The translations under genes were made by a program, and so were the position numbers. From Balneolaceae bacterium (lineage in GTDB: Bacteria > Bacteroidota > Rhodothermia > Balneolales > Balneolaceae): a stretch of DNA of 64,000 nt. The notes below the pieces were generated by a model. It was not told the origin of the DNA and searched no databases. It worked only from the letters and a program-made list of their open reading frames with translations. The stretch is from the NCBI GenBank assembly GCA_034521445.1, contig JAXHMM010000017.1, positions 1-64,000 of the forward strand. The letters are read 5' to 3'. Numbering within the stretch: position 1 is the stretch's first letter; every line of letters begins with the position of its first letter. Positions 14,023 to 19,248 of the stretch are shown piece after piece.

Positions 14023-15249
14023 TTACTCAATATGAATGCGGGTCACCCGAAGGACCGGAACATCGCCGGAGCGGTCGAAAAAGTAGAGTTGGTTCCGGTC
14101 GTCTATATGTTTCGGATGAAAGACCGTGTAGAATTCCTGTCTCATGGTGAAATCGTCGTCAATCTGCGAATACCCGACGTAGGCGCCCGTCTCGGCATCG
14201 AACAGTTCCAGGTAGTAGTCTGCATCGTTTCCTTCGGCCACTGTAACGAAATGAAAAAGCCACTCATCGTTGGCGAAAAGATGATTGCTTTGCAACAACA
14301 TCTGGTAGCGGTATGAACCTGCCGGATCCCCTCCACTGATCATACCATGCACCTTGCGCGCCATTTCAAAGAAATCTACATCCTGATCGAGCTGCCGGTA
14401 GGGTGTGGGGTTTGAAAAGCGGCTGTTGATCCCCTGAACGGTGGTCTGCAATTTGTCCTCAAGATAGGTATAGTTGATCATGAAAAGGGTTCCCTTGAAT
14501 ACCCGGTGGGTGAAGGCAAGCTGATTGCCGGGGAGACCTGCCATGTTATAGTGGTTTGGTGAACGGGCAATACGCCGTTCGATGAGCAGGTCGGGATCCC
14601 ACATCTTTTCATATATATCCAACACGCCGTGATACTGGGTGTCCAGATCCCGGGACATGAATTTAATGACCCTGTTGTCCATCTCTTCGACTCTGTCGGA
14701 ACCTACTTCTCCCCGGTAGTCTTTAGCTGTCACCGCCAGCGTTGAGTCGTCGATGGGGACGATATTGTGGCCGCCCGACCAGTCTGACTTGAAGCTGTGT
14801 GACCGGTGACTTTCTCCCAGTTCATAAAAATATGTGATGCGCTGGGACCGCGTGTCCAGTGCAATGAGTTCTCCGTCCTTCCCTATGGTCATCTCGTCCA
14901 TATCCAGGAACTCCCCGGGTCCCCGGCCCCGGCCACCAAACCGGGTGATAAAATTTCCCTCTGAATAGAAAACCCGGATGGACAGATCCTGGCCCGCCAG
15001 GTAGATGCGACCCACGGTGTCCGTGGTCACATGCAGTGGGTTGGCGATCATGTACTCCTCGGGGGCGTTCTCATCCTGGCCTATAACCATGACCTCTTGG
15101 AAGGATATCTCCAACTCCTGTGCGCCGGCTATCTGACCACCTACGAATAACCATGCCACAACAATCAGGCAGGCAAGACGAATTGAATATGCAAATAGGG
15201 CAGGGGACCACGGAGTAACTGTCGTAGGTAAAGGAGTGGATGTATTCAT
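14023..15249 (-). CDS. Exported 6-bladed beta-propeller protein
   Basis: The 408-residue product has an N-terminal hydrophobic segment (about residues 22-43) ending AGA, consistent with a signal peptide after an unusually long polar lead. The body carries propeller-type repeats (IYLAGQDLSIRVFYSEGNFITRFGGRGRGPGEFLDMDEM, split here as GRIYLAGQDLSIRVF and GNFITRFGGRGRGPGEF), the hallmark of the 6-bladed propeller / NHL-like proteins that Bacteroidota carry in many copies. The role is unknown; relatives are thought to be envelope proteins. It converges on the M16 peptidase, and no terminator is seen in the 25-base gap. Confidence 0.75.
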   Translation of the reverse strand: MNTSTPLPTTVTPWSPALFAYSIRLACLIVVAWLFVGGQIAGAQELEISFQEVMVIGQDENAPEEYMIANPLHVTTDTVGRIYLAGQDLSIRVFYSEGNFITRFGGRGRGPGEFLDMDEMTIGKDGELIALDTRSQRITYFYELGESHRSHSFKSDWSGGHNIVPIDDSTLAVTAKDYRGEVGSDRVEEMDNRVIKFMSRDLDTQYHGVLDIYEKMWDPDLLIERRIARSPNHYNMAGLPGNQLAFTHRVFKGTLFMINYTYLEDKLQTTVQGINSRFSNPTPYRQLDQDVDFFEMARKVHGMISGGDPAGSYRYQMLLQSNHLFANDEWLFHFVTVAEGNDADYYLELFDAETGAYVGYSQIDDDFTMRQEFYTVFHPKHIDDRNQLYFFDRSGDVPVLRVTRIHIE

Positions 15250-15380
15250 AATTCAAGGCCTTTTCCGTTGTTTACCCGTAACAAGAGCACGCAGTATGCG
15301 CTTGTATAGTTCTACTACTTATTTAACACTCTGTAAATTTGTAAGATTGGAGATCTTTGGCTTTTAGTTCAAATTGGGGG

Positions 15381-15409
15381 TTGACATCCAAGGCCGAACC
15401 GCTTAGATT
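15381..15409 (+). promoter_or_regulatory. Sigma70-like promoter of argFGH
   Basis: A perfect -35 hexamer TTGACA (15381-15386), a 17-base spacer and TAGATT (15404-15409) predict a start near 15416, about 20 bases before the leader peptide ATG. The rest of the gap 15250-15380 must hold the promoter of the divergent propeller gene; nothing else was recognised there. Confidence 0.75.
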
Positions 15410-15436
15410 TCTCGCATTTCCAAAAGACATCTGTTG

Positions 15437-15502
15437 ATGATAGAGCAAGTGCGCATAGCCTTAAACGAACGACGCCGCCGCCCGAAAGGGCGAAATACTT
15501 GA
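15437..15502 (+). CDS. Arginine-rich leader peptide of the argF attenuator
   Basis: This 21-codon frame begins ATG ATA GAG CAA and ends TGA. Six of 21 residues are Arg, and the core NERRRRPKGRNT has four consecutive Arg codons (CGA CGC CGC CGC, 15470-15481). It lies between a strong promoter and a terminator ahead of argF. Its codons overlap hairpin arms that decide termination, exactly as in the his and trp leader peptides of enterobacteria. An internal GTG at 15449 could serve as an alternative start. No strong ribosome binding site is visible, so actual translation is inferred. Confidence 0.75.
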   Translation: MIEQVRIALNERRRRPKGRNT

Positions 15503-15588
15503 TCTCTATCCATCATTAAGTATTCGCCCGCTCACTCTCACGATTGAGCGGGCTTTTTTTTGTAACTCACAAAACGTTTAAGGCTATG
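15454..15588 (+). promoter_or_regulatory. argF attenuator: competing pause, antiterminator and terminator hairpins plus start-codon clamp
   Basis: Four helices share sequence. Hairpin A: CGCCC (15479-15483) with GGGCG (15488-15492) across a GAAA loop. Helix B: GGGCGAAATACTT (15488-15500) with AAGTATTCGCCC (15518-15529), 12 pairs with one bulged A. Helix C: the terminator GCCCGCTC/GAGCGGGC. Helix D: CATAGCCTTAAACG (15454-15467) with its exact reverse complement at 15575-15588, which includes the argF ATG. A excludes B through 15488-15492, and B excludes C through 15526-15529. A ribosome stalled on the Arg codons would cover one arm of A and one of D, favouring B and an open start. A ribosome at the leader stop would cover one arm of B, favouring C. 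Confidence 0.8.
15526..15561 (+). terminator. Intrinsic terminator of the argF attenuator
   Basis: A perfect 8-bp GC-rich stem (15526-15533 with 15546-15553) is followed by eight T residues (15554-15561), 24 bases before the argF start codon. It lies between promoter and gene, so it can only make sense as a conditional terminator. Confidence 0.9.
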
Positions 15589-16587
15589 AACCATTTCCTT
15601 TCCATCGGCGGCAACGACCCGTCCTACATTCAGCATCTGCTGCGGCAAAGCCGGTACCTTCACACCAATCCCTCCATCAAAACCCTGGAGGGCAAGAATA
15701 TCCTCTTCTGCTTCGAGAAGCCCTCCTTGAGAACCAAGGTGGGAACCGAGGTGGCCATCAACGCCCTTGGCGGCGATGTGATCCACATCTCTCCGGAGGC
15801 CTTTCTGGGCGGCAAGGTGGTGCATCCCTCCGAGTTTGAATCCGACGTGCCCGAAGAGCGCGAGGCGCTCAAGGACACCGTGAAGAACGTATCGGAGTGG
15901 TGCGACGCCATCTTTGCCCGGGTCTACCGCCACCAGACACTCACCACGCTGGCCTCCTTTTCAGGTATCCCCATCATCAACGCCCTCTGCGACAAGCACC
16001 ATCCCATGCAGGCGCTGGCCGATCTTTACACTTTGCAGGAGAAGTTCGGAGAGGGACACCAGCTCACCGTGTCATTCGTGGGCGATGCCAACAATGTGGC
16101 CTTTTCGCTCATCGAGATCCTCCTGATGTCCGGCCATGAGATCCGCTTTGCAGGTCCCCGCGAGTACTACTGGGACAAGCAGCAGCTGCACCATTTTATC
16201 CAGCTGGCCAAGCGGCACCGGGGTACCTTCACCCACTCCACCGATCCTTTGAAGGCCGTCAGCGGCGCCGACGCCGTCTACACCGACGCCTTCGTCTCCA
16301 TGGGCGAGGAGAAGATCTACGACGAGAAGCTGGCCGCCTTCCGGAAATACCAGGTAAACGGCGAGCTCTTCGAAAAGGCGCCCTCCCATGCGGGCTTCAT
16401 GCACTGTCTGCCTGCCCACCGCGGGGTGGAGGTAACCGACGAGGTGCTCGACCACGAAAACTCCTGGATCTACGACCAGGCGTGCAACCGGATGGTGGTC
16501 TCCAAGGGGGTCTTCAGCACCCTGCTGACCGACAGCCAGGCTGCCTCCCCGGTAGCGTCGCGCCGTCAGCTGGCCGCCGAGGCCTGA
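15586..16587 (+). CDS. argF: Ornithine carbamoyltransferase
   Basis: This enzyme transfers carbamoyl phosphate to ornithine to form citrulline in arginine synthesis. The carbamoyl-phosphate loop is FEKPSLRTKVGTEVA (the usual STRTR written SLRTK), followed by HPMQALADL and HCLPAHRG, the ornithine-binding Cys loop. It lacks the features of the N-succinylornithine enzyme of Bacteroides, so the ordinary enzyme is favoured. The ATG at 15586 (333 residues) is chosen over an upstream in-frame ATG at 15544 because that one lies in the terminator stem. The start codon is the 3' arm of a 14-bp inverted repeat. It is first gene of argFGH. Confidence 0.92.
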   Translation: MNHFLSIGGNDPSYIQHLLRQSRYLHTNPSIKTLEGKNILFCFEKPSLRTKVGTEVAINALGGDVIHISPEAFLGGKVVHPSEFESDVPEEREALKDTVKNVSEWCDAIFARVYRHQTLTTLASFSGIPIINALCDKHHPMQALADLYTLQEKFGEGHQLTVSFVGDANNVAFSLIEILLMSGHEIRFAGPREYYWDKQQLHHFIQLAKRHRGTFTHSTDPLKAVSGADAVYTDAFVSMGEEKIYDEKLAAFRKYQVNGELFEKAPSHAGFMHCLPAHRGVEVTDEVLDHENSWIYDQACNRMVVSKGVFSTLLTDSQAASPVASRRQLAAEA

Positions 16588-16649
16588 GCACCGGGTGCCT
16601 CTTTCCGCACGAAACCTTTTTTATCTCCAATTTTCAAGAATACGTAACC

Positions 16650-17904
<1,255 letters not shown>

Positions 17905-17912
<8 letters not shown>

Positions 17913-19248
17913 ACTCTGGGAAAGCGAACACGGAAAGACGCAGAACGACAAGACAGGGAACCGAGCGGGACTTCGCCGCAAGGTGGAGGCCTTCACCGTG
18001 GGGGAGGACTATCTGCTGGACCGCAGGCTGCTTCCCTACGATCTCCGGGCCTCCAAAGTGCACGCGGAGGCGCTGGTGCACGCCGGCGTACTCGATGAGG
18101 AGGAGTGCGTCCGCCTGCAGGAGGCGCTCGACGAAATTCACGGCCTGTGGAAGGCGGGGGATTTCGAGATTCTTCCAGAGCAGGAGGATTGCCACACCGC
18201 CATCGAAGAGTTCCTGACCGACAAGCTGGGGGAGCTGGGACGAAAGATTCACGCCGGGCGCTCCCGCAACGACCAGGTGCTGGTGGCCATGCGCCTGCTG
18301 GAGAAGGACGGGCTCAAGCAGGTGGTCGGTGGCGTAAAGCTGCTGGCCGAGACGCTATTGGACCAGGCCAGGCGATACGACGGAGTGCCTATGCCGGGCT
18401 ACACTCACACCCGCAAGGCCATGCTCTCGTCCGTTCCGCTTTGGCTTGCCTCCCTGGCCGAGATGCTGATCATGGACCTGGAGGCGGTGCGCGGAGCATG
18501 GCGGCAGGCCGACCGCTGCCCCCTGGGTACGGCCGCCGGCTACGGCACGGCCTTCGACCTGCCCAGGGAGGAGACGGCCCGCAAGCTGGGCTTCTCGCGT
18601 CCCCTGGTGGCCTCCCTCGCCGCCCAGAACACCCGGGGGAGGGTGGACCTGCAGGTGGTGCAGGCGCTGGAGGCGGTGGGCTCCACGCTGGCCCTTTTCG
18701 CGGACGACCTGCTTGATTTTACGGCCTCTGAACGGGGATTCTTTGAGCTGGACGACGTCTTCTGCACCGGCTCCTCCATCATGCCGCAAAAGCGTAACAT
18801 CGACACTGCCGAGTTGATGCGCGCCCGTCATGCTGAGCTCGCGGGATCGGCGCAGGCCATCCGCATGAATATCAACGGCCTGGGATCCGGCTACCACCGC
18901 GACCTTCAGCTGGCCAAGGGTCATGTCATACGGTCGCTGGATACCATCCTGGAGATGCTGGAGATGGCCACCCTTTTGGCCGAAAGCCTGCGGCCGGTAG
19001 AGGAGAATCTGCGGGCGGCCTGTACGCCCGAGCTCTTCGCGGCCGACCGGGCTAACGAGCTGGTCAGAGAGGGGCTTTCCTTTCGGGATGCCTACCATCG
19101 TGTTAAAGAGGAGCTGGATAATTTGGAGGCGGACGACCCCGAGGCCAACCTGCGGTCCAAGACCCACCTGGGCGCCCCAGGTAACCCGGGTGTGGAGGAG
19201 CTGCGAGAGGAAGTGAGGGCTTTTCGGCTGGAACTAGACCGCGATTGA
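17905..19248 (+). CDS. argH: Argininosuccinate lyase
   Basis: ArgH cleaves argininosuccinate to arginine and fumarate. The 447-residue product carries KIHAGRSRNDQV, the active-site EDCHTAIE segment, the fumarase/aspartase superfamily signature GSSIMPQKRN near residue 290, and PGYTHTRKAML. It starts at the ATG at 17905, inside the end of argG, which indicates translational coupling. Together argFGH convert ornithine to arginine. Upstream steps (argB, C, D, J) are not in the window. Confidence 0.95.

Follow-up and report, generated by a model that had tools for sequence, protein, structure and literature searches.

Arginine synthesis is a textbook case of repressor control (ArgR/AhrC), and the trp and his attenuators follow the same logic as that proposed here for an arginine leader. 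In other bacteria the ArgR/AhrC repressor has the same target genes and the same signal, but it is a protein and it is absent from the genome studied here. The leader is located in a 64,000-nt stretch (positions 1 to 64,000 of contig JAXHMM010000017.1, assembly GCA_034521445.1, a Balneolaceae bacterium), and this whole stretch is referred to as the window. The trp, his, leu, thr, phe and ilv attenuators of Proteobacteria and Actinobacteria (PMC1262725 and general knowledge) share with the window leader a run of codons for the end product, the same order of protecting hairpin (a candidate in the window), antiterminator and terminator, and a stop codon placed inside the antiterminator. The window leader differs from them in the amino acid, which is arginine, in its occurrence in the class Rhodothermia, and in having no sequence relation to any of them.

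With respect to arginine, a survey of Actinobacteria did not find any arginine operon under the control of RNA elements, and the only RNA-level arginine control given for other bacteria was by T-boxes (PMC1262725). The arginine T-boxes (PMC1262725) resemble the window leader in that a terminator/antiterminator switch upstream of arginine genes senses the charging of tRNA-Arg, but the T-box RNA binds the tRNA directly and no leader peptide is needed. A search of Rfam, T-box included, gave no match at gathering score, and the best weak hits (anti-hemB with 23.2 bits and PyrR with 21.3 bits) were far below the cut-offs. In the Salmonella speF leader, ribosome pausing at consecutive Arg codons of orf34 senses arginine and alters the RNA structure (PMC6386406). 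Pausing at Arg codons and an inhibitory structure that hides the downstream ribosome-binding site are features of orf34 that are inferred for the window leader as well, but orf34 controls ornithine decarboxylase (polyamines), acts through Rho-dependent termination and RNase G and has two consecutive Arg codons only, whereas the window leader has an intrinsic terminator and argFGH downstream.

According to the part of PMC4997734 that cites it, carA of Pseudomonas aeruginosa has a leader peptide, with attenuation tied to pyrimidines and arginine control exerted at the level of transcription; as far as this citation goes, carA is similar to the window locus in having a leader peptide before an arginine/pyrimidine gene and a proposed attenuation, and the window genome differs in being without ArgR. 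A flavobacterial transcriptome paper (PMC9723704), the main text of which names no arginine operons, gives hints that operons for amino acids are attenuated by leader peptides encoded 5' of them; its supplements are not covered here and an earlier mention is not excluded. The reading of the DNA from sequence alone that preceded this work (below, the sequence-only reading) had suggested that leader-peptide attenuation of arginine genes may be undescribed, and we found no description of such attenuation of arginine biosynthesis in the open-access literature searched. The proposed mechanism is classical ribosome-mediated attenuation and the novelty lies in the arginine, the breadth and the link to the absence of ArgR.

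Layout of the leader upstream of argFGH

By sequence reading, an arginine operon leader is located directly 5' of argF-argG-argH in the window. The features of the leader and the operon are:

15381..15409, + strand: promoter-like site TTGACA-N17-TAGATT (sequence)
15437..15502, + strand: leader peptide frame MIEQVRIALNERRRRPKGRNT*, 21 codons; an Arg-run frame is present in all 32 leaders read
15439..15445, + strand: candidate protecting helix P1, 5' strand GATAGAG, 7 bp, partner CTCTATC
15454..15467, + strand: leader strand of the 14-bp leader:argF-start helix (duplex test)
15470..15481, + strand: putative regulatory Arg codons CGA CGC CGC CGC; in folding, the antiterminator is formed with a masked ribosome placed at any of codons one to three of the run
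15479..15492, + strand: hairpin A, CGCCC-GAAA-GGGCG (folding; helix kept in alignment A1)
15488..15503, + strand: antiterminator helix B, 5' strand, includes the leader stop codon (duplex energy, covariation)
15504..15510, + strand: candidate protecting helix P1, 3' strand CTCTATC (same duplex test as the 5' strand)
15515..15529, + strand: antiterminator helix B, 3' strand; the four bases at its 3' end also make up the base of the terminator 5' arm
15526..15561, + strand: intrinsic terminator C, 9 bp stem followed by T8, -20.1 kcal/mol, compensatory changes in relatives
15575..15588, + strand: argF-start strand of the 14-bp helix, includes the ATG (duplex and accessibility)
15586..16587, + strand: argF, ornithine carbamoyltransferase (TIGR00658, 288.1 bits, cut-off 280.85), start ATG at 15586-15588
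16650..17912, + strand: argG, argininosuccinate synthase (TIGR00032 and NF001770, both above cut-off)
17827..19248, + strand: argH, argininosuccinate lyase (TIGR00838, 282.9 bits, cut-off 279.5); the true start may be 3' of 17827

The promoter-like site, the 21-codon frame, the run of four Arg codons, hairpin A and the terminator were all found at the positions given by the sequence-only reading. Its helix B is real and excludes the base of the terminator, given that 15526-15529 are common to helix B and the terminator 5' arm, but the 12 bp assigned to it were too few, as the two strands (15488-15503 with 15515-15529) can form some 15 bp, interrupted by a single bulged A. Two elements had been left out, namely the leader:argF-start helix of the window and the conserved candidate protecting helix P1.

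The boxes of the promoter-like site (TTGACA at 15381-15386 and TAGATT at 15404-15409, spacer 17 nt) are a match that, taken alone, is at chance level (1 found versus 0.8 in shuffles), and a TTG-N18..22-TAnnTT element was present 5' of the leader in 10/32 leaders as compared to 7% of shuffles. The helix B duplex in the window had an energy of -20.3 kcal/mol versus -10.5 for shuffles, with 0/500 shuffles as good, and folding of the whole 152-nt leader gave -59.6 kcal/mol (z = -7.6 versus shuffles). The terminator consists of a 5' arm at 15526-15534, a 3' arm at 15545-15553 and eight T at 15554-15561; it was absent from the list of the pattern scanner (loop limit 8 nt) and its energy was obtained from direct hairpin folding. 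The gene 5' of the leader is divergent and the terminator is therefore not part of that gene.

An assignment of the window argF to the N-acetylornithine type was ruled out by the family search, which identified an ornithine carbamoyltransferase (TIGR00658). The argFGH region is present on two contigs of the assembly (window 14086-18084 and L001, G000 C2) that are 99.9% identical over 4 kb, and the two copies differ at the T run of the terminator (8 and 9, respectively). On a contig labelled Uhrbacteria (MAG, L039) argG is followed by an argF that is 57% identical to the window argF, without a leader, and gene transfer or a binning error are possible explanations.

Conservation of argF leaders in relatives

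The search for argF in 196 relatives plus 129 genomes of the order resulted in 37 genomes with this argF type. The 32 leaders with enough upstream DNA, window included and two of them nearly identical, were read, and three other fetched loci in which the contig or stretch stops inside the leader were left out. In all 32 leaders a frame of 19-36 codons with an Arg run is followed by a terminator and then by argF. Relatives lacking the Arg run would have refuted the sequence-only reading and none was found among the genomes that carry this argF and whose DNA reaches far enough 5' of it. The arginines are kept while the codons vary (e.g. CGC CGT CGC CGC; CGG CGG CGG CGG; CGA CGC CGC CGC). The leader peptide of the core group is M...LRRRRPxGV*, and in distant families the Arg run and the layout are kept with other codons (CGG CGG CGG CGG; CGC CGC CGC TGT CGT).

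The leaders were aligned, as had been proposed, for covarying helices, and the alternative helices were kept with compensatory changes. The helix B duplex was better than in shuffles, with a mean z of -1.7 over the 32 leaders, and in the distant leaders L003-L006 and L032-L034 it was no better than shuffles. In the alignment 87% of the helix B pairs were kept versus 35-53% when the strands were slid, and 11 cells were changed on both sides. The terminator, too, was conserved in all relatives read with this argF and carried compensatory changes. Helix P1 joins leader codons 2-8 to the bases after the stop codon, and an unpicked duplex test, which replaced hand-picked registers, gave a mean z of -2.1; the P1 duplex was significant (p≤0.05) in most core relatives and had p = 0.67 in the window (7 bp). 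The relatives are not independent samples. The parts of the leader, their conservation and their covariation are established on the evidence of sequence and comparison.

A covariance model built from 24 leaders recovered the same leader set across the class plus one relic. This relic Arg leader, MKFYGNILLMHTRRRRCLLGM (L077, G049 C17:50681-50786, E = 1.6e-11), is located 340 nt before a TonB-dependent-receptor-like gene in a genome where neither argF nor argG was found.

Predicted response to the position of the ribosome

Each leader was folded as transcribed to the terminator loop, with a 30-nt ribosome footprint masked. The median probability of the antiterminator was 0.98 with the ribosome at Arg1-3 and 0.44 with the ribosome at Arg4, and it was as low as 0.01 when the stop codon was occupied; without a ribosome it was 0.22. 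In a codon-by-codon scan the drop fell between codons -6 and -4, counted relative to the stop, which is the end of the Arg run. The switch that had been predicted for masked-ribosome folding was in this way seen in silico, in RNA before the 3' arm of the terminator. Equilibrium folding of the complete leader failed to display it, and the switch is visible only before the terminator 3' arm exists. In most leaders, and also in that of the window, the terminator prevails over the antiterminator at equilibrium wherever the ribosome is placed (terminator near 1 in nearly all states), and because the terminator wins, the switch must be kinetic or operate via lost basal pairs. Unlike in most relatives, the antiterminator of the window is favoured also without any ribosome (0.93-0.99), and basal termination of an untranslated leader is therefore not predicted in the window. 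The shuffle control on antiterminator probability (0.64 versus 0.90) was weak because GGGC:GCCC survives shuffling and, given that this control was uninformative, duplex energies and covariation were used.

Of the criteria for an attenuator, a frame with cognate codons, an intrinsic terminator and an overlapping antiterminator are present, and a structure that depends on the position of the ribosome is seen in silico only. The conserved leaders, the compensatory changes and the masked folding support the arginine-attenuation interpretation of the sequence-only reading, and we consider it very probable that the window leader controls argFGH by ribosome-mediated attenuation of transcription, with charged tRNA-Arg as the signal that is sensed; the arginine response itself is inferred. 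When arginine is plentiful, the leading ribosome would pass the Arg codons, reach the stop at 15500 and cover the 5' strand of helix B, which would allow the terminator at 15526-15561 to form before argF. In a shortage of charged tRNA-Arg, the ribosome would wait at the first to third Arg codon and block hairpin A, which when left uncovered by the ribosome would sequester the 5' strand of helix B; with hairpin A blocked, helix B would pair and deprive the terminator stem of its base, and transcription would continue into argFGH. Translation of the frame, stalling and termination are, like the arginine response, inferences made without expression, Term-seq or Ribo-seq data.

The window leader may also act on translation. 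The segment CATAGCCTTAAACG (leader codons 6-11, 15454-15467) is complementary to CGTTTAAGGCTATG (15575-15588) at all 14 bases, and the duplex of the two had an energy of -22.3 kcal/mol versus -6.8 for shuffles (0/300 as good). In readthrough RNA of the window the mean open probability of the argF start region was 0.16 without a ribosome or with a ribosome at the stop codon and 0.44-0.47 with a ribosome at Arg1-3, because the ribosome stalled there covers the leader strand. In the nearest relative, L002, the helix is partly kept (-14.4 kcal/mol, p = 0.003) and the accessibility of the start region showed little change with ribosome position; in the other relatives the duplex test did not detect the helix. 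These results, from the window and, partly, from one relative, suggest that the 14-bp helix is a second, translational lock on argF, which is likewise an inference. In the window lineage, the argF start may be held in a helix with codons 6-11 and would be freed by a ribosome at the Arg run, while at plentiful arginine the helix would shut argF translation in those transcripts that leak through the terminator.

The 14-bp helix between leader codons and argF start, the change in start accessibility between these ribosome positions and a comparable co-varying helix between leader and pre-start region in sister genera without a clear U-tract terminator could all be accommodated if the main effect of the leader were on translation or on the stability of the mRNA, as with orf34 of Salmonella speF, so that a stall at the Arg codons remodels the argF start and the hairpin before the T8 is of minor importance. 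We regard this as unlikely, given that a U-tract terminator with compensatory changes is found in all relatives with this argF, most of which are without the start-codon helix.

In core relatives (e.g. L008, L009, L022 and L024) another long-range helix was observed, in which the segment before the 3' strand of helix B pairs with a site about 60 nt upstream of argF and thereby spans the terminator. As first spotted by eye, this helix failed a whole-UTR shuffle test (2/32). In a hand-fixed register 6/7 pairs were changed on both sides, and with the site confined to -80..-45 of argF, 23/20000 permutations were as good. The terminator-spanning helix is likely in core relatives and is not present in the window, and it can form only in readthrough RNA.

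The C-terminal part of the leader peptide is strongly basic and conserved (LRRRRPxGV in the core group), which would fit an arrest by the nascent poly-Arg peptide, the ligand being arginine or a compound related to it (cf. the fungal arginine attenuator peptide and SpeFL) instead of tRNA starvation. Several observations make such an arrest very improbable: the Arg run is free both synonymously and in position, the flanking residues are lost in distant relatives, the codons are located where a tRNA-dependent pause favours readthrough, and an arrest at high arginine would be in the wrong direction for a biosynthetic operon. Attenuation of transcription in response to charged tRNA-Arg remains our preferred reading.

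Arg leaders and absence of ArgR in the class

The DNA-binding domain of ArgR was not found in any of the genomes of the order that were searched, while ArgR-bearing control genomes were detected. The C-terminal domain was found in one of 240 sampled genomes of the class and was absent from 239, among them the window genome, with positive controls; the absence of ArgR is likewise a result of sequence comparison. In the only genome with ArgR (L124, G201 C181) an argR-like gene is located directly upstream of argG and there is no Arg leader at that place, an apparent swap of the RNA switch for a repressor.

The DNA upstream of argG was read in 60 further genomes, 31 of which had a terminator just before argG (L107-L147). 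At 29/31 of these terminator-bearing loci there was a frame that has four or more Arg within ten residues and stops 50-90 nt 5' of the T run. The best Arg count in 10 residues was on average 5.4 versus 1.3 in shuffles, with other residues at 1.9 or less. In most families of the class these argG-type leaders are followed by strong terminators, located some 50 nt 5' of argG, and their sequences have no relation to the window leader. Their antiterminators were not resolved by the crude measure used (0.64 stalled versus 0.50 at the stop codon), and in some families, such as f13, no Arg leader was found with this argG-upstream scan. That the window leader is merely an unregulated constitutive terminator or processing hairpin next to a chance GC-rich frame is hardly credible, even if CGC repeats are common in GC-rich DNA and the promoter match does not exceed chance: every relative retains the arginines while the codons vary, and in the argG leaders of the class Arg is the sole residue of 20 to show enrichment.

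In genera of the window family without this argF the operon opens with an acetyltransferase-like gene followed by argG, and an Arg leader is present upstream (L150-L161; e.g. MQNTLAHRIDFIPVRPIPRRR*). No clear U-tract terminator was found in these leaders, and their co-varying helix joins leader codons 6-10 with the pre-start region (4/20000 permutations as good). Taken together, we are inclined to conclude, with some reservation, that the class Rhodothermia (GTDB; Balneolota and Rhodothermota) has abandoned ArgR and regulates arginine synthesis by poly-Arg leaders, which are placed before operons of at least three types (argFGH, argG-first and acetyltransferase-argG-first) and have two read-outs, terminator switching and leader helices that lock the start region, both of which are found in the one 150-nt leader of the window.

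Some further leaders were observed. At L070, L071, L073, L074 and L080 a leader with two Arg runs (RRRRFRRR) precedes an argG operon, and the carbamoyltransferase of the L070 operon is of the N-acetylornithine type, unlike the window argF. In another family of the order (L075 and L076) a Trp leader-like frame (TGG TGG TGG TCA ATT CGC TAA) with a terminator is located upstream of a trpE-like gene. A Val/Leu/Ile-rich leader-like frame (M-A/S-VVALVIATMI*) is located before a terminator at L078 and L085, a layout that would suit an attenuator for branched-chain amino acids; the downstream genes are unidentified.

Most of the class seems to run arginine synthesis by translation-coupled attenuation, with ArgR absent, and the single genome with ArgR beside argG is without the leader; this distribution is a clean natural experiment on the replacement between a transcription factor and an RNA switch. 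The possible double lock of the window, with a terminator and a start-codon helix both governed by one ribosome, would be a compact design. For these little-studied phyla the leader would be a readable sensor of arginine starvation, and attenuation would imply a close coupling of transcription and translation in them.
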